Part shown: one piece after another, positions 16,181-32,035 of the stretch
How positions within the stretch are numbered: position 1 is the first letter of the stretch
Layout of the letters: each line of letters starts with the position of its first letter
NCBI RefSeq assembly: GCF_900114285.1
Contig: NZ_FOSN01000004.1
Location: 1 to 64,000, forward strand
DNA length: 64,000 bases
DNA from: Methylocapsa palsarum
GTDB taxonomy: Bacteria; Pseudomonadota; Alphaproteobacteria; Rhizobiales; Beijerinckiaceae
Reading direction: 5' to 3'
Notes under the pieces: generated by a model
What the model saw: the letters and a program-made list of their open reading frames with translations, nothing else
What the model was told of the DNA's origin: nothing
Databases searched by the model: none
Program-made: the position numbers and the translations under genes

Positions 16181-17416
16181 ATGATTGAGTATGAGGAGAC
16201 GAGGCGCAGTCTACGAGGCCTTGACACGCTCTTCCGCGCCACCGCGCTGGCATGGCGCAGGTCGGATGGAGCGCCAAAGAGTGTAGGGGAGATCCTCAAT
16301 GAGAATAAAGGAAAGGGCCCGGGATTCGACATGGCGCGGCTCGTGCTTGCGCTCGGCGTCCTCTGCTTTCACTCCATTATCACCTCCTACGGGCAGGAAG
16401 CGCAGGATGCGGTCCTCGAGGGACCGTTCAAGCCGCTCTTTCTTGCCACGCTGCCCATGTTCTTCGCCCTCAGCGGCTTCCTGATAGCAGGCAGCCTGAC
16501 GCGGGTGAAGTCGCTCAAGACTTTCATCGTTCACCGCGTACTGCGCATCGTCCCGGCGCTGTCATGCGAGGTCTTTCTGTCGGCGCTCATTCTTGGGCCA
16601 ATTGTGACTGTCTATACATTACCAGCCTATTTTTCGGATCGCGGATTCTTTGAGTATTTTTTCAATATCATCGGGAAAGTTCGTTACTATCTGCCGGGTG
16701 TGTTCCTGGATAACCCGCTTCCCTCGATCGTCAACTTTTCTCTCTGGACAGTGCCGATCGAAATCCAATGCTACATCGGCATTTCCATCCTGATCCTTCT
16801 AGGCGTTGCTGCCAACAAGCGGATGATGCTGGTGGTTTTCGTCGGCGCGGTGCTCGTGCAGGCGGCGGGCGAGGCGCAGGGCGTCTTCGCGCCAAACCCG
16901 AAAGATATTGTCACGCACTACACCCTGTTTGTCTGCTTTATCGGCGGCGTTGCAACCTATCTTTGGCGGGATCATATCAAGCTGACCTATTTTGGCGTCG
17001 TCGCCGCGCTTATCGTGATGGCTGCGTCTTTCTACACGGGTGCCTATTATTTTCCTTCTTCCGCCTGCGCCGCTTACCTTGTCGTCTGTTTCGGCATGAC
17101 CGCGTTTCCTCGCATCCCGCTTCTTTCCAACGGCGACTATTCCTACGGGATTTATCTTTATGGCTGCCCCGTGCAGCAGACGTTGATGCATTATTTCCCA
17201 GGCCAGCAGAACTGGGCCTTCAATCTTGCGCTCGCGATGCCCTTGAGCGTCGCGTTAGCCTATCTATCCTGGAACATGGTTGAGAAGCACGCTCTCTACC
17301 TAAAAGATCACCCGCAGCTACAGCGCTTCATGGCCTATCCGGCAAGAGATCGATATCGCGCCGCGACGAGCTCGTGGCGCCGGAGACTGATCGCCGCCGC
17401 TGGGCGCGGTCGTTAA
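16181..17416 (+). CDS. Acyltransferase 3 family membrane protein
   Basis: A 411-residue protein with about 10 membrane segments. Family signs are GFDMARLVLALGVLCFHS (catalytic-histidine region), FFALSGFLIAGSL and the R-x10-P-A pattern in VHRVLRIVPAL. Members O-acetylate or otherwise acylate surface sugars, using acyl-CoA from the cytoplasm. The gene is the last of the plus-strand polysaccharide run, 200 bases after the GT2. With the thioesterase-like gene at 5873 it suggests an acyl-decorated polymer (inference). Confidence 0.85.
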   Translation: MIEYEETRRSLRGLDTLFRATALAWRRSDGAPKSVGEILNENKGKGPGFDMARLVLALGVLCFHSIITSYGQEAQDAVLEGPFKPLFLATLPMFFALSGFLIAGSLTRVKSLKTFIVHRVLRIVPALSCEVFLSALILGPIVTVYTLPAYFSDRGFFEYFFNIIGKVRYYLPGVFLDNPLPSIVNFSLWTVPIEIQCYIGISILILLGVAANKRMMLVVFVGAVLVQAAGEAQGVFAPNPKDIVTHYTLFVCFIGGVATYLWRDHIKLTYFGVVAALIVMAASFYTGAYYFPSSACAAYLVVCFGMTAFPRIPLLSNGDYSYGIYLYGCPVQQTLMHYFPGQQNWAFNLALAMPLSVALAYLSWNMVEKHALYLKDHPQLQRFMAYPARDRYRAATSSWRRRLIAAAGRGR

Positions 17417-17566
17417 TCGCGCGCGGCGTCTGGCAGATCGAGCAGGGACTCGGCGCTCTTGAGGGACGCCCGTCTCGGTATGCCGGTCTCCGTTCGGGTC
17501 AAGGCAAAACCCGCCTTAATCCCGAAACATACCGTTATTACAACATAATTGGAGAGACAAGGAAAA

Positions 17567-18139
17567 ATGAATATTTATGAAGAATATAGAAGGCCAGTTC
17601 TCTTATTCATCCTTATAACAATAGGATTCATAGTTTGGCTTAAATGCAAACTGCTTCTCATTGTTTCCGGTTCTTCCAATGAAAAACAAAGAGCAGAAGC
17701 AATAGAGGAAGTCGCTATACTATATTTACAAAGGTTGCGCAAACAAAAACCGCGACTTCCACTAGAGTTTTGGATTGTCGAAGGACATGTAAAGGACAAG
17801 AGAAAATTAAATAGACAAAGCACCCCAACTAAGTTTTGGATTTTTAATAACATAAGAGAGCTGATGGAACATCTGGAAGAAGATATCCGGCTTCCAATTA
17901 GGTTAGATCCGATCAAAAAATCAGAGGGTGCAAAACAAATATATATTTTTTCAATGGCTGATTATAAAAGGATTCAGAGTATAAAATATAGCCCATTTCT
18001 GGTTCAAGAGTACGAAAGAGCCTCAGGACTCCCCTCATTTATAGCCGACTCACGATCGCCTGAATTGAGGCGCCAAGCGGTGACGGGACCTAGAATCAGC
18101 GGTCGGGGCCGAGATGCAGACCTCCACCTATCGCATTGA
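17567..18139 (+). CDS. AT-rich orphan membrane-anchored protein, unknown
   Basis: I do not recognise this protein. From the ATG at 17567, which follows AAGGAAAA, it has 190 residues. One membrane helix lies near the N terminus (VLLFILITIGFIVWLKCKLL), then a charged domain with ILYLQRLRKQKPRLP, FWIFNNIRELMEHLEEDI and IYIFSMADYKRI. Base composition is strikingly AT-rich against the GC-rich polysaccharide genes just upstream, which suggests recent acquisition. A TTG at 17549 would add six residues. The GC-rich last 30 codons differ from the rest, so the reading frame may have lost its original end. Confidence 0.55.
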   Translation: MNIYEEYRRPVLLFILITIGFIVWLKCKLLLIVSGSSNEKQRAEAIEEVAILYLQRLRKQKPRLPLEFWIVEGHVKDKRKLNRQSTPTKFWIFNNIRELMEHLEEDIRLPIRLDPIKKSEGAKQIYIFSMADYKRIQSIKYSPFLVQEYERASGLPSFIADSRSPELRRQAVTGPRISGRGRDADLHLSH

Positions 18140-18387
18140 AACCGTTCTGCCTACACCGTCGCCAATGAATCGAAATAAAAAGACTCTACCACATGAACAT
18201 TTTTTGATAATTCTGGACAAAGGGGGCCAAACAGATTCAATATAGATCCGCTTATTCGTTGCTCACAACTAATAACGAAATCGAACGCAAGAACCTAGTC
18301 GCCTATCAATTCTTTGCAGGTAGTTTTTGCCGAATGGGCGTTTCATCCTATAGTTCTCCCTGAGGCCATGTTGCCAGGACTCGTTAA

Positions 18388-19140
18388 ATGACGAAGCCAA
18401 CCGATCCCGACCACACAGAGGGCCTCGCTAATGCTGCGGAAACAATGCCAACGCCGCAACAGCGCGCCATTATCGAGCGTTACCTCAAGCGCCGCAAGAG
18501 TCGACCCCACGCGCCTCGTCTGGTCGTCAAATCGCAATCGAGCGAGCCGTTGGCGGTCAGCAGCCCTTCACTGGCTGACGACGCGGGCCTAGCGCTGGCT
18601 TTCGGAACCACAGATCCCGGGCTTGCAAATACCTTGCTCAAGAGCCTTATCAGCGCAGCCTGTGATAGCGGCCCTAATCATTCGCCGAGCGAAAAAGAGG
18701 TCAACGGAATGCTGGCGGCCGTTCATGGCGTCGGGGCGAACGACGAAATCGAAGCGATGCTGGCAGTGCAGATGGTCGCCACGCATTTCGCCGCAACACG
18801 CGCGCTTCGTCGCTTGAAAGGCTCGGACACGATCCCTCAGCAGGACAGCAACGGAAATCTGGCAGTGAAACTTTTGCGAACCTTCGCGGCCCAGACCGAG
18901 GCGTTGCAGCGGTATCGTGGGAAGGGGCAGCAGAAAGTGACCGTCGAACACGTTCACGTGCATACCGGCGCGCGCGCAATTGTTGGTACAGTGAGCCACG
19001 GCGGGAGGGATCATGTCGAAAATCGTGGACAACCCCACGGACCTCAAAATGGAGGAACCATCACATTTGCGCCAGGCGCGGCGCTGCTTGGCGAAGACGA
19101 GACGCGGGACGCAGTGCCAGTCGCCAGCGGTCAGCGGTAA
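18388..19140 (+). CDS. Conserved hypothetical protein, Rhizobiales type
   Basis: 250 residues, no known function. A polar N-terminal part with TPQQRAIIERYLKRR is followed by a helical core carrying EKEVNGMLAAVHGVG and EAMLAVQMVATHFAATRALRR, then a conserved-looking tail VTVEHVHVHTGARAIVG. I recall this family from many Rhizobiales genomes, always paired with a small Cys/His-rich protein gene like the one that follows. The last 128 bases overlap that gene in another frame. Confidence 0.65.
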   Translation: MTKPTDPDHTEGLANAAETMPTPQQRAIIERYLKRRKSRPHAPRLVVKSQSSEPLAVSSPSLADDAGLALAFGTTDPGLANTLLKSLISAACDSGPNHSPSEKEVNGMLAAVHGVGANDEIEAMLAVQMVATHFAATRALRRLKGSDTIPQQDSNGNLAVKLLRTFAAQTEALQRYRGKGQQKVTVEHVHVHTGARAIVGTVSHGGRDHVENRGQPHGPQNGGTITFAPGAALLGEDETRDAVPVASGQR

Positions 19141-19306
19141 AAGGCGCTGCCGAATGCATGGTGGCGCGGCAGGTAGTGGAGCCCCAAAGGGAGAGCGGAA
19201 CGGGAATTGGAGGCACGGCGGCTTCACTGCGGAGGCAGTGGATGAGCGAAGGCGTCTGACGTCTTTGATCCGGAATGGCCGTGAATTTCTGACGCGGCTG
19301 CGGTAA
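19013..19306 (+). CDS. Small HGG-motif Cys/His protein overlapping the upstream gene
   Basis: A 97-residue basic protein. It carries RRCLAKTRRGTQCQSPA and RRCRMHGGAAGSGAPKG, a Cys/His arrangement (C-x6-8-C, C-x2-H) that may bind metal; the tail ERRRLTSLIRNGREFL is helical. Its ATG at 19013 follows GGGAGGGA located inside the upstream coding sequence, so the two genes share 128 bases in different frames. Databases sometimes carry misleading names for this family; I assign no function. Confidence 0.65.
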   Translation: MSKIVDNPTDLKMEEPSHLRQARRCLAKTRRGTQCQSPAVSGKRRCRMHGGAAGSGAPKGERNGNWRHGGFTAEAVDERRRLTSLIRNGREFLTRLR

Positions 19307-20303
19307 CGCGCGATGACCAGACCGCCGCGCTCCGTTGAGACGACGGAAATGGGCGAACCGTGTTTGCTAAACGGATTTTCAAGAACGTCGCGTTAGGCAG
19401 TTTCGGAATAGAAATTAACCCGCCTCAACGGCCAGCTGGCGCTAGCGGAGATCGTCAAAGGCCTCACCCGTGAACAAGACTGGCTGCGGGTCGGCGGCAG
19501 CGGCCCCCGAGAACGCCTTTTTTCGCTATCCGGGCTTAGCTGATTAGCCCGAGAACCTGGCGTCGGTCTGCTCCCGAAGGGTGATTGACGGGGAGAACGA
19601 TATCCGCTCCCGGCGCCAGAAAAGAAACCATAGTAGGATACGTGTTGCCGTATGACCACACTCATGGCGGGCCTATTGGCGAGGTCGGTGGCGGCGAGTT
19701 TGAGCGAAGTCTCTTCTCGCGGCGATCAAGAAAATCGGTGAGGGCAGCCAAGGATACGAGAGCCCCGGCGGTGCCGTGGAATATTTCAAGCTCGTGTCTT
19801 CAATCGCCAGTTTCAGAGTGGCCAGCTCTTGGATCGCGGGGATCACTTTTACCGAACTCCGCAGCGGCGGCCCGGTAGGCGGCTAGATATCGCTTGGCTT
19901 CGCGGGTGCGGATAATCAAGATTGGATGGCCCGCGATGGTCGCCGTGCCTGCCTGTCTCCGTCTGCTGGGTTCGGTGGGCGACGATTTTCTTCTGCGCCG
20001 AAGTGCCTGCGGCGGACATCGCCAAATCGTCCAAGTTGAAATCCTTCCTTGTGTCACCCCAGCGTCGTCACCACTTGGCGGCGCTTTGCATTAAGACCGC
20101 TGCATCTTGGGGGGGGGTACCTAGCATGATTAAAAAGCCACTCCCGTTAAAAAAAACGCGACTGTTGTCCCTACGTTGCCCCAATTTAAGCCGCATCGTC
20201 GCGAAGGACAACATGCGCCGGAGGTATCCATTAGATATCAAGGGTGTACATAGGGCCTGTCGTGCAGGGAGCGCAAGATATAGGGTCACGTGATCTTAAT
20301 TGG
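19307..20303. other. Gene-poor stretch with decayed frames
   Basis: One kilobase without a convincing gene. A minus-strand stretch about 19800-20060 still looks protein-like (alanine-rich, with AKRYLAAYRAAAAEFGK) but is broken by frameshifts. A run of nine G residues sits at 20109-20117, just before a 55-codon frame starting at 20127. Both may be remnants of older mobile DNA. Confidence 0.4.
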
Positions 20304-20321
20304 GGCCGATTCGAATCGGCC
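20304..20321. repeat. Perfect 18-bp palindrome
   Basis: GGCCGATTCGAATCGGCC is fully symmetric, with no spacer. It lies near the presumed left border of the integrated element. It could be a protein-binding or recombination site; its role is unknown. Confidence 0.45.
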
Positions 20322-20375
20322 TGGGAAGTTGTGGCAAAAGTGAATTGTTAAGCTTACCGTTGAGGGAATGTCGGT

Positions 20376-20417
20376 TTAGCCGGTTAAGGTGCGATGCGCT
20401 GGGCGCTTAGCCGGTTA
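20376..20417. repeat. Two direct TTAGCCGGTTA sites, 31 bases apart
   Basis: TTAGCCGGTTA occurs at 20376-20386 and 20407-20417, a centre spacing of 31 bases, close to three helical turns. A related perfect palindrome, TTAACCGGTTAA, lies at 25789-25800 near the AlpA-like gene. The set looks like binding sites for one element-encoded protein. Confidence 0.5.
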
Positions 20418-20521
20418 CGGTAGGGTTGCGAAGCGTTTGTGCGCGAAAGATGTCGGAGTGGAGGGTGGTGTCGGACGGTGACGGATGTGGTCGTGTGAGG
20501 CGTGCGAACGATGACATCGGT

Positions 20522-20768
20522 GATATCGATGATTGCCTACTGCTGTATCTTTCGAATTAAAATATATTTCTCTCCCTTTTTTTTGCTCCTGCTACTTTTG
20601 CGATTTTTGGTGATAATTTTAGATACTTAGATAAAAAATATATGTTTTAATTTGAAAGATACAGCAGTGCGAAATCATCGATATCGTCCATCTTGTCGAT
20701 TTCGAAATATTTTGGGTCCATAAATAGCGCAGTTGGAAATCATCAATTTCATCGATTTCGTTCGATTC
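20522..20768. repeat. AT-rich inverted and direct repeats, candidate replication origin
   Basis: Arms 20522-20569 and 20635-20685 are near-identical inverted copies of about 48 bases, both containing ACTGCTGTATCTTTC and ATATCGATGATT, separated by a very AT-rich spacer with long T runs. The outer part of the right arm recurs as a direct copy at about 20730-20768 (GAAATCATC followed by a CATCGAT-type word). The array lies immediately downstream of the primase-helicase gene. Repeats plus an AT-rich core next to a replication initiator are the usual form of an origin; that function is inferred. Confidence 0.5.
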
Positions 20769-20790
20769 GTCCCATTCGCGGCCATCCCTC

Positions 20791-23619
20791 CTACCTGCAC
20801 AAAGCGACAACCGCGTCCGTCTGTTCCTGCGACCCCAAACCCGTCCTGACGTAGACAGTCTGGCGCTTACCACCAACGACATACTGGCCGTCCTTAGCCG
20901 CTTCGTTCCGGATCGGAACAAAACCATTTTTTTCCATGTGGTAAGGGAGGGTACGCCAGTTTTTGCGGCTCGTCAGCCACTCGTAGAGCGAGTGGTCCCC
21001 TATCACAGCCTTCACCAGCATCTCGCGGGTTACGACGCGCAGCTCTCCGCCGTTCTCGACCGCGAGACGGTCGAGAACATCAGCAAGCTCGCTCACTTCT
21101 GGCGAGCGGGCGGTGTTGGCGATTGCCCAAAACGCCTCCGTTTTGAGCGGCGGAGCTTTCGGATCGAAGCGTGAGATGTCGCGCTCGGCCAACCATGCCG
21201 CGACATGGCCGAAACCTCCCGACGAGTACCACACCCACATTCGGGACCAATATCCCTCGTCGAAATCCTTCTGCTCCAGGTCGCTCCAGGCGACGTAGTG
21301 GCGGCGGTCGTCCGGCGGCAGGTAGATTCCGTCAGTCTTATGGTTGCTCGTGATAATGACGCCCATAACATTTTGTACATAATATTCTTTGGTGTGCTTT
21401 TCATTGACGCGGAGCACATCTGGCGGCGTCGCGGCATACGTTTTCATGTGTTCATAAAACGAGAAACGGTCAAATTCTCCCATGTCCTTCGCTTCGGAGA
21501 TGCGGAGGATCACAGACTTGCAGTAGCTGTTGAAACTATTAAGCAAATTAGGCGGTGTGATTTCGGTGAAGTTCCATGACCCAACGGCGTGCTTGACAGG
21601 TTCGAGCATCGTGTCCTTGCCGATGCCCGGCGACCCCCCAAGGAACAGCGCATGATTGATCTTGACGCCGGGCTGCTGTACGCGCTGCGCCAGGAAGTTA
21701 AAGATATGCTCAGCGTCGTTTGGCTCGACCCTGCGGACATGGTCGAGCCACGGACCCGCCTTCGTCGCGTCGCCGGGACTGGGGCGGCCAGGACGGTAAA
21801 GATTGAACACCGAGACCCCTCTGCGCGGGATCCACCCCCCATCAGCGATGAGCATGTCCTTGATTAACTGCGGCTGCCCCGGCGACCATGTCAGCTGTTC
21901 GACTGGGGCGTTTCTGGCGATCCAGGAGCTGGCCGCCAAGCTCTTTTTTTCGCCATCCTCGTCTATGAGCGGGCGGCCGCGGGCGTCAAAGAGTTGGACC
22001 GGCGGCACACGCTGATCGACGCGCTGAGGTGGCCAGAGCTCGCCTGTCGGTTTAAAAATGCACATCGGACTTTGCATGTAGGCCACGAAGTCGCCGAGCT
22101 GCACGCCTTCCCCGTCCGCGCCCTGGGCGGCGCCTGCCGTGATCTGCCTCGCATCCTGCTTCTTCGCCCAGGCCGCCTTATCATGGTCCGCCTTCTCCCG
22201 GGCCGATTTGACCGTCGCATTGATGCCGCGCTTGCCGTCGCCGGACAGGTCTTTCGCGAGGTTGCGAAGTCGCTCATCGTCAATCGCGTCCAATTCGGCG
22301 TCGCGGAGCATGCCAACAAAAACCCGGACCGCGTTCGTGGGGTCGGCCCGCATCGCGGCCTCGATGGCTGGCGGCGTGTAACGCAGGACATAGGTCGTCA
22401 GTCCATGCGCGAAAGACCGAATCCACGGCCGCCCGTCATCGCGGACATAAACGATCGCGGTGCTGCGCCCGTAGGCCACGCCCTCTTGCGGATCGGCGAG
22501 CGCCTGGCCCTCAAACTTCGATGGCTCAGCCATGACGTCGCCCACCGTCACGGCCCCGAACTTCGGGTCGGCGAAGTCGAGCGGAACGTCCGGATACAGG
22601 ACGCCCTTGCTCCAGGCTTCCGCCATCGCCCGCGCCCGAGGCTCCGGAACGCCGGCCTCGACCGCGGCGGCGACGCGCTGGTCCTCGGCGCGCCTCTGTG
22701 TGGCCTTGCGGAGTGGCTCAAGCAGGAGCGCCGAGGCGGCGATGCGCCGGGCCGCCTCGATCCGCTGGAGCTCGCTCGGAACGATCGCCGCGGTGTCGAA
22801 CGGCGGGCCGCTGTGCGTCACCGCCGGACGCGGACCCTGCCGCAGCCCGGGGCCAAGTTCGGGGTCGGCCTCGAAGACCAGGCGCTCGCCGCCTCCGACG
22901 GACCTGTCGATGATCGATCGTTCGAGCAATTGACCAATGAGGCCGACGCCGTGCCAGCCAAAGCCCGCGGCCCAGCATTTCACCTGCAGCGCGGCGAGGA
23001 AGCGGGTCGCGTCGGCGCCGTCCTTGACATGAAGATAAACATGCTCGCCGCCGGAGCTTAGAGGCTCTCCCGTGGCGGCTCTCAGCACGCCAGCGCTGGT
23101 CGAGGAGCGGGCGACGCGGCCAGCCGCGGCGATACCAGGGCACACGTCCTCCAGCGCGCCCTGGAACCCGCCCAGCGCGACGATGCGGGCGCGAACGTCC
23201 GCGGGCATGTCCTTGCGGTCGAAGTCGAGCAGGACAAAAGCCGGTTCGCCCGGCCGATAATCGAAATTCTCCCGGATCCGCGCGATCGCCGCGCCGCCGT
23301 TCAGGCGATTGCGCGAGACGATCGGGACGCGGTCCGGCACGCCGGCGGCTGGGGCGCCGAGCCCATAGGCGACGTTGCGGGGCGTCGATTCGATCAAGGC
23401 TCCGAAGGTTTCGACAGTCGTCTCCAGTCGTTCCGCGAAACCGCTTCCCATCACGCATTGCGAGCTGTCGCTCGCGAGCCCGCCATCCGGCGCCAGCGCT
23501 ATTCGCTTGGTCAAACTGCCGTGGTCCTTGACGAACTTAGTCAGCGCAATCGTAGGTTCGGCCGGGGCCGCGCAAGAATTGGCGTCGAGAAAATCCGGGT
23601 TTATAGTCATGGCGAGCAC
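20791..23619 (-). CDS. Primase-helicase of a mobile element (SF3/D5-type)
   Basis: A 942-residue replication protein. The N-terminal third resembles archaeo-eukaryotic-type primase/polymerase domains, with an acidic strand FVLLDFDRKD (D132, D134) and GGEHVYLHV near 190-198. The C-terminal part is a superfamily 3 helicase: Walker A GGSPGIGKDT at about 661-670, then VILRISEAKD as the Walker B region and VIITSNHKTDGIY as sensor. It would unwind and prime the element's DNA. The start is GTG at 23619 or ATG at 23610. It is the last gene of the minus-strand module and ends beside the repeat array at 20522-20768. Confidence 0.8.
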   Translation of the reverse strand: MLAMTINPDFLDANSCAAPAEPTIALTKFVKDHGSLTKRIALAPDGGLASDSSQCVMGSGFAERLETTVETFGALIESTPRNVAYGLGAPAAGVPDRVPIVSRNRLNGGAAIARIRENFDYRPGEPAFVLLDFDRKDMPADVRARIVALGGFQGALEDVCPGIAAAGRVARSSTSAGVLRAATGEPLSSGGEHVYLHVKDGADATRFLAALQVKCWAAGFGWHGVGLIGQLLERSIIDRSVGGGERLVFEADPELGPGLRQGPRPAVTHSGPPFDTAAIVPSELQRIEAARRIAASALLLEPLRKATQRRAEDQRVAAAVEAGVPEPRARAMAEAWSKGVLYPDVPLDFADPKFGAVTVGDVMAEPSKFEGQALADPQEGVAYGRSTAIVYVRDDGRPWIRSFAHGLTTYVLRYTPPAIEAAMRADPTNAVRVFVGMLRDAELDAIDDERLRNLAKDLSGDGKRGINATVKSAREKADHDKAAWAKKQDARQITAGAAQGADGEGVQLGDFVAYMQSPMCIFKPTGELWPPQRVDQRVPPVQLFDARGRPLIDEDGEKKSLAASSWIARNAPVEQLTWSPGQPQLIKDMLIADGGWIPRRGVSVFNLYRPGRPSPGDATKAGPWLDHVRRVEPNDAEHIFNFLAQRVQQPGVKINHALFLGGSPGIGKDTMLEPVKHAVGSWNFTEITPPNLLNSFNSYCKSVILRISEAKDMGEFDRFSFYEHMKTYAATPPDVLRVNEKHTKEYYVQNVMGVIITSNHKTDGIYLPPDDRRHYVAWSDLEQKDFDEGYWSRMWVWYSSGGFGHVAAWLAERDISRFDPKAPPLKTEAFWAIANTARSPEVSELADVLDRLAVENGGELRVVTREMLVKAVIGDHSLYEWLTSRKNWRTLPYHMEKNGFVPIRNEAAKDGQYVVGGKRQTVYVRTGLGSQEQTDAVVALCR

Positions 23620-23682: not shown

Positions 23683-24456
23683 TTAGAACGGCGGCGCGTA
23701 ATCGCCGGCCGCGCCGTCCGCCGGAGCGGGCAGCATCAAGCGCGGGGCGCCGTCGCCCTTGATGGAAACGATGACGTCGGAGAATTCATCTTCCGGCGCC
23801 CAGCCCACAATTTTGTAGACGGGCGTGTGGATACGCCCGTATTCCTTCCGGGGGTGCGCGTAGCTGGAGCTCTCGAATGTGATGATCGGAAGCATTCCCG
23901 CCTCCATCCGCAAATGCCGTCCGAACAGGCCGAGAAGATTGACGAACCCGGTATAGCCGCCGCGGGACATCGAGCTCACCGTGAAGCCGTCGCCTTGGGC
24001 GTTGACTACGCAGAACGACGACGCTTGCTGCCAGGGGTCCTTCGGCTTGCCGTTTTCAAACGACCACGCTGATTCATCGGCCTCGTCCAGAGAGTCCCGA
24101 TCGACGCGGAATCCCCCATCGATAAAGCCCATGGACGAGCCAGCGAGGGCGCCCTCACGCCATTTCTGGAAACCGGCCTTGGCGGTCGGCATGAGAGCGA
24201 CATATGGCCCGGTCGGCAGCGGATGACCGTCCTGACCGGAGGTATAATTCCCCGAGCGGTGGTCGAACTTGATCCGGTTGCCGAACAGCCCCTCATTTAT
24301 GCCGCCCGCGTCCGCGACAAATTCCGCGTAGGCATTATACCGGAGGCCAGGACCCGCCACGGCCGGAACCTTCGGCTCCGGCGCTGGCGCGGGGACGCTG
24401 GGCGCGGCAACATGCGTCTTTCCCGCGTTATCATTGATCGCCTGCTTCGTTGTCAT
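23683..24456 (-). CDS. Phage-type replication-associated protein, possibly ssDNA-binding
   Basis: A 257-residue protein with a proline/alanine-rich N terminus (about residues 15-36). The core contains GNRIKFDHRSGNYTSG, PTGPYVALMPTAKAGFQKW, PKDPWQQASSFCVV and GDGFTVSSMSRGGYTGF, a pattern I recall from replication blocks of phages and integrated elements. The predicted beta-rich core fits a single-strand DNA-binding role, but that is inference. AAGGAAAAA precedes the ATG, and the gene starts 18 bases after the nuclease stop, so both are in one operon. Confidence 0.6.
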   Translation of the reverse strand: MTTKQAINDNAGKTHVAAPSVPAPAPEPKVPAVAGPGLRYNAYAEFVADAGGINEGLFGNRIKFDHRSGNYTSGQDGHPLPTGPYVALMPTAKAGFQKWREGALAGSSMGFIDGGFRVDRDSLDEADESAWSFENGKPKDPWQQASSFCVVNAQGDGFTVSSMSRGGYTGFVNLLGLFGRHLRMEAGMLPIITFESSSYAHPRKEYGRIHTPVYKIVGWAPEDEFSDVIVSIKGDGAPRLMLPAPADGAAGDYAPPF

Positions 24457-24474: not shown

Positions 24475-25392
24475 TCAATTTCCCGACGCGACGCGTCGGG
24501 GCTCCATCGGCCCGTCAGAATGAAGGTCCCGAATTCGTGTTTCACCGCAGGCGCCGCACGTGGCGACGTAGGGGCAATATTGACACTCGCCGCCGCCGGC
24601 GAGACGGCCCTCGGCCGGCAAGTCCGCCATCGACGCGGCGCCCATGATGAGTCGCGCTCGCCGTTCAGCCGCCGCGAAAACGGCCGGATCAAACCTGATC
24701 GGAATTTCAGTGACTTTGAGGAAGCTAGCTGAAAGGTAGATGATGATTCCAACATCAGGCTTGTAGCGAGACGTCTCGCGAACCAAACCGAGCTGAATCT
24801 GCACCTGGACGACGTGGGTGTTTTTGGGGAGGTCGCGCGTGCGGTCGTCTACGCTTTTGCATTCCGTGATGACGACGGCGTTATCACGTCCGAGATCGAC
24901 GCCAAGATGCGCGAACTCGTGGCGTTGGCATCCCAGCAACAATCCGTCCGGCGTGGCGGCGAGGCGCCCATTGGAAAAATTGTGCTGGCGTGCGCCGCCG
25001 TAACGGAACCGGCGGCCGTAGGCCCCGCGCATGGCGGGCGCGAATAGCCCGGCCTCGATCATCTGACCGCGGAAAGCGCAGCGCTGATTTTCCACGTAGT
25101 GAGGATCAGGGGGAACCGCGTCTTTGCCAGCGCGGACGCGACGGGCGCAAGAAACGCATTCAGAGGCATTGAGCGTGGCGCGGCGGCGCTCCAGCCGGGC
25201 CGCGTCAAAAGTCTGATTTTCAGCGATGAACGCATCGACATGCCGGTCGATCGTCGGGATCGCGCGGTCCGGCGCCGGGCTCGCGTTGGCTGCTACTTGA
25301 TTTTCTGGTGGATTTCCTTTAGAAACATCTTCGCCTGCAAAGCGACCTAGTTTTTTAAAGAAGGCCGCCCCGTGTTGGGCGGCTTTTTTCAT
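24475..25392 (-). CDS. PD-(D/E)XK exonuclease with Cas4-like cysteine cluster
   Basis: A 305-residue protein from the ATG at 25392, which overlaps the stop of the AlpA-like gene (ATGA). Visible nuclease residues are D149 in ATPDGLLLG, E177-x-K179 in ITECKS, then a Gln-rich helix HVVQVQIQLGLV (QxxxY-like region). Cysteines at 79/82 (ECVSCAR) and 270/273/279/282 (CQYCPYVATCGAC) match the iron-sulfur cluster layout of Cas4 and AddB-type RecB nucleases. No Cas1, Cas2 or CRISPR array is nearby, so it is an element-borne recombination or replication nuclease, not a CRISPR gene. Codons 3-9 form a strong GC hairpin at DNA level. Confidence 0.75.
   Translation of the reverse strand: MKKAAQHGAAFFKKLGRFAGEDVSKGNPPENQVAANASPAPDRAIPTIDRHVDAFIAENQTFDAARLERRRATLNASECVSCARRVRAGKDAVPPDPHYVENQRCAFRGQMIEAGLFAPAMRGAYGRRFRYGGARQHNFSNGRLAATPDGLLLGCQRHEFAHLGVDLGRDNAVVITECKSVDDRTRDLPKNTHVVQVQIQLGLVRETSRYKPDVGIIIYLSASFLKVTEIPIRFDPAVFAAAERRARLIMGAASMADLPAEGRLAGGGECQYCPYVATCGACGETRIRDLHSDGPMEPRRVASGN
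25364..25389 (+). terminator. GC hairpin with T6 (plus strand) inside the nuclease start
   Basis: GCCGCCC-CGTGTT-GGGCGGC followed by six T on the plus strand has the form of a rho-independent terminator. On the minus strand the same stem is preceded by six A and followed by CTTCTTT, so it could act there as a weak terminator or attenuator. It lies within codons 2-9 of the nuclease gene, directly after the AlpA-like gene. Confidence 0.5.
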
Positions 25393-25721
25393 GGCGCTAA
25401 CGCCTGTGAAGCAACTCGAGCCGCCTTGCGGCGTGGCGCTGCTTTGGCCGCCGTCGGACGTGTGCGCAGAAACGCGTCGATTTGTGCTGCGGGCCAAACG
25501 CGAATGTTCGGACCGATCAAAATTCCGGGCGGAAAATCGCCCGCCTGAATCCAACGCGCGAGCGTCGCTCGCGAGTCTACAATCCCGCGACTTTTTAGGT
25601 CACGGTAACGAAAGTTTTCGAGGTTCTTTTTTTCAAAGGCCGCCTCAATTCGGCGGAAGGTCTCAGGCGAAACTATTTCGTTCAGTTCGGCGCGCAAGGC
25701 TTCCGGCAAAACGTTGGGCAT
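25389..25721 (-). CDS. AlpA/MerR-type small DNA-binding regulator (excisionase-like)
   Basis: A 110-residue protein. The core, RYRDLKSRGIVDSRATLARW then FPPGILIGPNIRVW and IDAFLRTRP, is the winged helix of AlpA/excisionase-type proteins from phages and islands. These control integrase or excision, or activate element genes. The ATG at 25721 is preceded by an AGGACC ribosome site that lies inside a perfect inverted repeat. The stop overlaps the nuclease start. Confidence 0.75.
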   Translation of the reverse strand: MPNVLPEALRAELNEIVSPETFRRIEAAFEKKNLENFRYRDLKSRGIVDSRATLARWIQAGDFPPGILIGPNIRVWPAAQIDAFLRTRPTAAKAAPRRKAARVASQALAP

Positions 25722-31619: not shown

Positions 31620-31684
31620 CGCCGGCGGCCGCGCGCGGGACGGACGATAAGCAAAAAGGCGTCCTGTCCGAGAAAATCATAAGA

Positions 31685-31790
31685 CCATCCCTACGCCAGT
31701 ACGAACTGGATCAGGTTCGAAGGGTCGCCGGGCCGCTCATGGAAAGCGATGCCAGCCTCTCAGCCCCCTGCCGGGGATCCCCTAGGTGAA
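31685..31790 (-). promoter_or_regulatory. TPP riboswitch (THI element)
   Basis: On the minus strand the conserved TPP aptamer is clear: GGGGGCTGAGAGGC, then ACCCTTCGAACCTGATC, then GTACTGGCGTAGGGA. It sits directly upstream of thiO and should lower thiOSGE expression when thiamine diphosphate is abundant. The expression platform between 31620 and 31684 probably acts on the thiO ribosome site or by termination; I could not decide which. Confidence 0.95.
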
Positions 31791-32035
31791 CGCAATAGGT
31801 AGGCGCGTCCCGCGAAAGCGTCAAGCGCGGGCGCGCGAAGACGCAAGCGTCCGCCAACCCCCCGGAGCCTTTGCGTCGACAGGCGCCCGCGCCGATTTAT
31901 TCAAAGTCCTGTCCGTAAATAGCCATGAGCGGCGCACATCCCGGACTTGTTTTTTGACTATAATTTTGTCTCGAAAGTATAATTGGCGTGACGGGCCTTA
32001 TAAATGATAACATTTATTATAATTTGGAGAGTGCT

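Follow-up and report, generated by a model that had tools for sequence, protein, structure and literature searches.

A repeat array lies directly behind a primase-helicase gene in the window (the whole stretch of DNA that was analysed, 64,000 nt), and it is very likely the site at which an integrated mobile element starts its replication, with the primase-helicase of that element as the protein that reads it. Judged from sequence comparison, the best reading is probably a SaPI/PICI-style candidate origin for a self-loading SF3 helicase. Among the results that count for the origin reading are that the layout is kept after most of the closer helicase homologues and that the letters of its repeats covary with a predicted wing of the helicase.

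The repeat array and the genes beside it

The array contains two inverted arms (20522–20567 and 20640–20685) of 46 nt each, which are complementary at 41 of 46 positions (89%). The pairing lengthens to 59 nt at 81%, so the length of about 48 bases that the first-pass annotation gave for two near-identical facing arms is fair. The spacer, described there as very AT-rich, is 71% AT, and the outer motif does return once more downstream, as a partial direct repeat at 20736–20760 (76% to its reference). With an ungapped +1/−2 score of 31, the inverted repeat is the strongest in the 64-kb window, where the runner-up scores 14, and the best score in 500 dinucleotide shuffles of 20300–20830 was not higher than 13. 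The array is single-copy in its own 4.1-Mb genome. A genome search with E ≤ 10 returned the array, its own arms and five further matches of 15–18 nt, each with E > 1. DNA searches with the array gave no match in plasmids, and the one match among phages was to 39 nt of tail-fibre sequence in Erwinia phages (E 0.02).

The arms consist of tandem 9-nt iterons of the ATCGATGAT type (Table 1). The repeat type, left unnamed in the first-pass annotation, can thus be given as iterons in a SaPI/PICI-like layout. Each block has about three 9-nt units, of which the innermost is ATCGATGAT in blocks A and B and ATTGATGAT in block C, and behind the units stands a tail with ACTGC and TAT, read by eye. Blocks A and B face each other in inverted orientation across the spacer, and block C is a direct repeat of B that lies nearer to the gene. 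Units starting at 20516, 20525, 20674, 20739 and 20748, all near-copies of ATCGATGAT, were located by script, and the outermost units and the tails were read by eye. Single matches to 8 of the 9 letters of a unit are found in other parts of the window too, spaced as expected by chance.

Table 1. Features of the array and of the neighbouring gene run (positions in the window)
Feature	Position	Strand	Basis
Iteron block A, about three units (AACGATGAC, ATCGGTGAT, ATCGATGAT) pointing into the spacer	20507..20533	+	last two units by script, first by eye
Block A tail, inner left arm (ACTGCTGTATCTTTC and AT-rich end)	20534..20567	+	
AT-rich spacer, 72 nt; proposed melting site (inferred)	20568..20639	.	
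Block B tail, inner right arm	20640..20673	-	
Iteron block B, about three units (ATCGATGAT, ATGGACGAT, ATCGACAAG) pointing into the spacer	20674..20700	-	first unit by script, others by eye
Iteron block C, direct partial copy of B with tail (ATTGATGAT, ATCGATGAA and a weaker unit)	20722..20765	-	two units by script, tail and third unit by eye
Primase-helicase, 942 aa, DUF5906 (SF3-type) helicase in C-terminal half; proposed initiator	20791..23619	-	
Predicted C-terminal winged helix (residues ~865–925); proposed iteron-reading domain	20845..21027	-	AlphaFold2 model and covariation
257-aa protein, PHROG family annotated nucleotidyltransferase; same gene run	23683..24456	-	
Cas4-like (exonuclease-like) protein, start uncertain; same gene run	24475..25446	-	weak match
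AlpA-like excisionase/regulator	25389..25721	-	weak match (E 4.5e-6)
Tyrosine integrase with arm-type DNA-binding domain, 421 aa	26358..27623	-	

The site follows the primase-helicase gene immediately, as had been claimed. The array spans 20507–20765 and the gene, on the minus strand, ends at 20791, so the array lies on its 3′ side, with the arms within 290 nt of the stop. A place directly 3′ of an operon and long complementary arms would also suit a transcription terminator, an attenuator or another RNA element at the operon end. We consider this very unlikely, as no terminator-like site was detected in 20200–21000, no Rfam family reached its gathering score over the array (the sub-threshold matches are plant-type microRNA hairpins), and the spacer is long in the scored loci, with a median of 78.5 nt where a minimum of 20 nt was required. 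Iterons of iteron plasmids often serve as both origin and operator, and here the gene of a DNA-binding protein adjoins its repeats, as an autoregulatory operator of the helicase operon would have it. An operator with no origin function is nevertheless exceedingly improbable, because the array is 3′ and not 5′ of the gene and a scan of 20200–21000 for sigma-70 type promoters, the one type covered, found no promoter-like site.

The primase-helicase matches DUF5906 (PF19263), listed by Pfam as of unknown function, with 42.7 bits, above the curated cut-off of 27.6, and it also matches phage DNA primase families. Integrase, AlpA-like gene, primase-helicase and candidate origin are found in one element, which is the gene content used to recognise PICIs, the AlpA match being weak. 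The IMG/VR contigs L060, L061, L062, L067 and L069 carry relatives of the Cas4-like protein (35–42%) and of the 257-aa protein (27–31%). On the left of the array, the region 17400–20450 has little recognisable coding; an ORF with an HGGxSTG domain lies at 19013–19306, and a low-GC patch (35% GC) at 17.5–18.0 kb holds a 196-aa ORF without a family match.

The first-pass annotation had proposed an excised, replicating element. Its integrase and AlpA-like genes are present, but the search for an att repeat pair around the element gave chance-level matches only. Of 14 further genomes of the genus, two have the transporter gene of the right flank (73–76% identity), and the left-flank gene was found in none. 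Because the further neighbours of the transporter differ in those two genomes and the left-flank gene is absent, the comparison within the genus does not fix the element ends. A TPP riboswitch at 31671–31793 (minus strand), beside ORFs resembling thiamine genes, marks ordinary chromosome on the right of the element. Attachment, packaging and transposon-end sites have inverted repeats too, and block C gives the asymmetry that such a site could have. That the array is one of these is highly improbable, however. It is single-copy in the genome, no repeat matching it was found near the integrase, and its arms are only 72 nt apart. In addition, the array stays with the helicase, and a window-like integrase was seen in at least 23 of 116 loci, a lower bound because the loci are short.

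Arrays after the stops of homologous helicases

The search of genome contigs with the whole protein found no relative, whereas the alignment of the helicase alone did. The whole-protein search also gave two IMG/VR contigs, and both have inverted 9-nt units at the helicase stop, in other letters. The alignment of the helicase half (A1) led to viral loci, the best 80 of 89, and to 34 genomic loci. The starting set contained 118 helicase loci. From one earlier search, just two foreign matches (L010 and L011) were taken into this set, and the others, mostly distant, were treated separately. The window was added, and L045 and L073 (the same places as L027 and L028), two loci without a stop and two with less than 300 nt after the stop were removed, which gave 113 loci, and 95 after removal of 18 near-copies. 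The closer homologues, 75 of the 95, form the set A2. Among the 20 outside it, L047 and L118 were excluded because of unread bases, and all others are distant or partial.

The first-pass annotation had named, as a check on its reading, a look for the same array next to homologous primase genes. When the region from −40 to +450 of the stop was searched in the 75 de-duplicated closer homologues (window included), 63 had an inverted repeat scoring at least 13 and 58 reached at least 14. The array is neither absent beside homologues nor, being single-copy, shared with unrelated chromosomal sites, the two outcomes that the first-pass annotation had named against its own reading. Two controls were used, 570 random stretches of the same loci and 535 stretches after the stops of other long ORFs. 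In 61 of 95 loci the stretch behind the helicase stop scored 14 or more, as did 5 of the 570 random stretches and 7 of the 535 that follow other ORFs. For a 9-nt period score of at least 9, the numbers were 46 of 95, 16 of 570 and 14 of 535, respectively, and both features together were found in 43 of 95 helicase loci versus 0 of 570 and 3 of 535 controls. In A2, 9 nt was the single best period in 46 of the 75 loci and tied in 6. The window itself has a period-9 score of 8 and narrowly misses the threshold of 9 because its units are diverged.

The layout is kept while the iteron letters vary from locus to locus. In 50 loci anchored on the last nonamer, the two arms agree by 82–98% over the last two nonamers, by 32–56% at offsets +1 to +4 and by 70–82% at offsets +5 to +8. 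Since these loci were chosen by, and anchored on, their inverted repeat, the absolute agreement is partly by construction, but the dip between the agreeing stretches is not. In the chosen register, the last nonamer has G at position 7 (95%), T at 6 (82%), A at 8 (72%) and T at 9 (83%), and the second-to-last nonamer has mostly A at position 9 (64%); positions 3 and 4 vary most. In 64 of 66 loci the spacer has a higher AT content than the gene (median 0.55 versus 0.40). Contigs titled Pseudomonadota, Gemmatimonadota and Acidobacteriota are among the array-bearing loci, and some of these host labels may be wrong because several are metagenome bins.

Twelve of the 75 A2 loci are below the threshold of 13, of which six (L043, L053, L057, L122, L129 and L132) show inverted nonamers by eye, unscored. 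Outside A2, 3 of 20 loci have the array, and one of the three, L047, is closely related and was excluded from A2 because of an X; L118 has an array with a score of 17 about 2 kb downstream. None of eight named phages, taken among the matches listed (60 rows of 179 and 136 records), has an inverted repeat of at least 13, and phiM5 reaches 12. The wider DUF5906 genes of the genus have the array in 3 of 14 loci, at least three of the 14 being places already in the earlier sets. In 13 older, mostly distant loci, 1 of 12 reaches 13, and the remaining one has no stop in the locus. On the helicase tree, the presence of the repeat is not clustered (11 changes; 231 of 500 shuffles as low). The rule is therefore confined to one clade and patchy outside it, given 0 of 8 named phages, 3 of 14 loci of the genus and 3 of 20 loci outside A2.

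Some loci have other designs. The array period is 10 nt instead of 9 nt in L060 and L061. In the first 75 nt after its helicase stop, L135 has an unusually long tandem nonamer run (TTCCGTGAC type), with a short nonamer run across an AT-rich spacer from it. In L018 (857–1090) and L023 (829–1055), inverted repeats scoring 26 and 15 lie 5′ and not 3′ of distant helicase matches. L165, L170 and L171, distant DUF5906 loci of the same genus, show periods of 9 nt (CTGTCCGAA), 10 nt and 7 nt.

The helicase module and its predicted wing

The helicase part of the window's protein is present in 116 of 116 fetched loci, by construction of the search, and the primase part in 1 of 116. In ten whole proteins, the domains before the same helicase are Prim-Pol in four, Toprim-like in two (one match being under its cut-off), PriCT_2 in one and the NrS-1 HBD in one, and none was recognised in two. 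As differing primase domains stand before the same helicase, the array travels, as far as these sequences tell, with the helicase module and not with the primase module. NrS-1 is the top match of the helicase in both sequence and fold searches, and its helicase domain is the closest solved structure; later fold matches include poxvirus E5/D5, African swine fever PrimPol and the SaPI PriRep1/SaPI5 primase-helicase. AlphaFold2 on A2 gave a confident model (pLDDT 94.1, pTM 0.86), in which the C-terminal end has three helices and short strands. We read this end as a predicted winged helix.

Iteron distances were compared with the distances of parts of the helicase, with correction for the ATPase part, in 53 of the 54 loci for which a nonamer was written down. 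For the wing, the partial r was 0.284, and 0 of 2000 permutations were as high; in the main clade (41 loci) it was 0.278 (1 of 2000) and in the loci with distinct iterons (n = 32) 0.238 (6 of 2000), where the permutations remove shared descent incompletely and the iterons were written down by hand. In the same three sets, 9, 59 and 178 of 2000 permutations were as high for the helices of the winged helix, 21, 92 and 143 for the linker before it, and 586, 1248 and 606 for the N-terminal stretch. Positions 422, 424, 426 and 431 of the fragment (910–919 of the protein), all in the wing, are among the highest residue associations. Residue 276 of the fragment, which lies in the ATPase part, has the strongest association of all; shared descent can cause such an association as well as the covariation of the linker. 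These sequence data suggest that the divergence of the predicted wing tracks the divergence of the iteron.

The array could instead act as a stem-loop origin like that of pRN1, in which an extruded hairpin would be recognised by its shape and the tandem repeats would be incidental. According to the excerpts available, pRN1 depends on an intact stem-loop some 100 bp in size, which lies 3′ of its PrimPol-SF3-winged-helix gene (PMC4234260), and the window array as single-stranded DNA folds better than 200 shuffles (z −3.67). A hairpin would not, however, lead one to expect arms whose agreement is highest in the nonamers and low at offsets +1 to +4, nor iteron letters that covary with the wing, and pairing alone needs no tandem 9-nt units within an arm. 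Recognition by shape with incidental repeats is thus unlikely, and the stem-loop and iteron readings can both be partly true.

Known replicons, a proposed mechanism and meaning

The passages on SaPI/PICI origins place them directly 3′ of the initiator gene, with iteron sets around an AT-rich region (PMC6092414). The window array is likewise immediately 3′ of the putative initiator gene, as in its relatives, and has two iteron sets around an AT-rich region; the likeness is one of described layout. Two listed stretches of the E. coli CFT073 chromosome did not show the PICI EcCICFT073. The window helicase is also similar in fold to SaPI PriRep1 and to the SaPI5 primase-helicase. It differs in belonging to the DUF5906/NrS-1 branch, in the shared 9-bp iteron grammar and in its occurrence in phage contigs too. 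The link of DUF5906 to a 3′ origin is not wholly new, because the cited passages already place DUF5906 among the replication genes of PICIs whose positions coincide with mapped origins (PMC10111431). In SCCmec, the C-terminal domain of the self-loading helicase Cch2 is described as binding direct repeats downstream of its gene (excerpts of PMC7581432); these are three 5-nt iterons and the primase is separate, while the window has 9-nt units and a fused primase. For pRN1, a large stem-loop 3′ of the replication gene with variable sequence and kept structure is described, and a similar one was proposed for Bordetella phage BIP-1 (excerpts of PMC4234260). The window likewise has a large predicted stem-loop 3′ of a primase-SF3-winged-helix gene, but its arms are tandem 9-nt iterons, whereas the pRN1 authors, in the same excerpts, report no iteron structure. 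The PICMI satellites are also small elements with integrase, AlpA and a DUF5906-type primase, and the PICMI passages describe no origin repeats (PMC10803314). Their typical site, optional in the search model, is downstream of fis in Vibrionaceae. The window element has extra Cas4-like and 257-aa genes, an alphaproteobacterial host and a transporter at its right flank, and no fis site was found. For the NrS-1 helicase domain, the origin role is left open in the passages cited (PMC7102993).

The proposed mechanism is as follows. The integrase and the AlpA-like protein would excise the element. The winged helix of each helicase subunit would bind one 9-bp iteron, and a hexameric SF3 ring would assemble on each inverted block. 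Two facing rings could then open the AT-rich spacer, and the fused primase would prime on the exposed single strands. As initiator and origin are adjacent, they could be mobilised as a single cassette and change together, even as the primase part is swapped for another. The steps from binding and loading to melting and priming most likely proceed in this way by analogy with PICIs, SCCmec Cch2 and pRN1, as described in excerpts of PMC6092414, PMC7581432 and PMC4234260.

Origins of this kind are known, but the shared 9-bp grammar seems to be new, and so does its presence in phage contigs and in MAG contigs of three phyla. No open PMC paper was found to describe the clade-wide 9-bp grammar, the phage-contig occurrence or the wing-iteron covariation, and none joined DUF5906 with an iteron or contained any of six nonamer-pair strings. 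On balance, we lean towards the view that a clade of DUF5906 (NrS-1-type) helicases is one class of portable replicon, with a self-loading helicase whose C-terminal wing reads a 9-bp iteron behind its gene, freely exchangeable primases (Prim-Pol, Toprim-like or other) and a readable wing-to-iteron code, spread over phages and integrated elements of several phyla.

The array bears on a printed claim, made in the cited part of PMC6092414, that this origin layout is common to no known bacterial replicon but PICIs. If the view above is true, a layout that has been called peculiar to PICIs would be shared generally within this helicase clade. The results suggest a probable role for the DUF5906 helicase family, as an origin-binding, self-loading initiator, together with a probable binding site. 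They also place a predicted origin on dozens of the phage contigs and islands that were compared, and supply natural protein-iteron pairs with which a recognition code may be tested.
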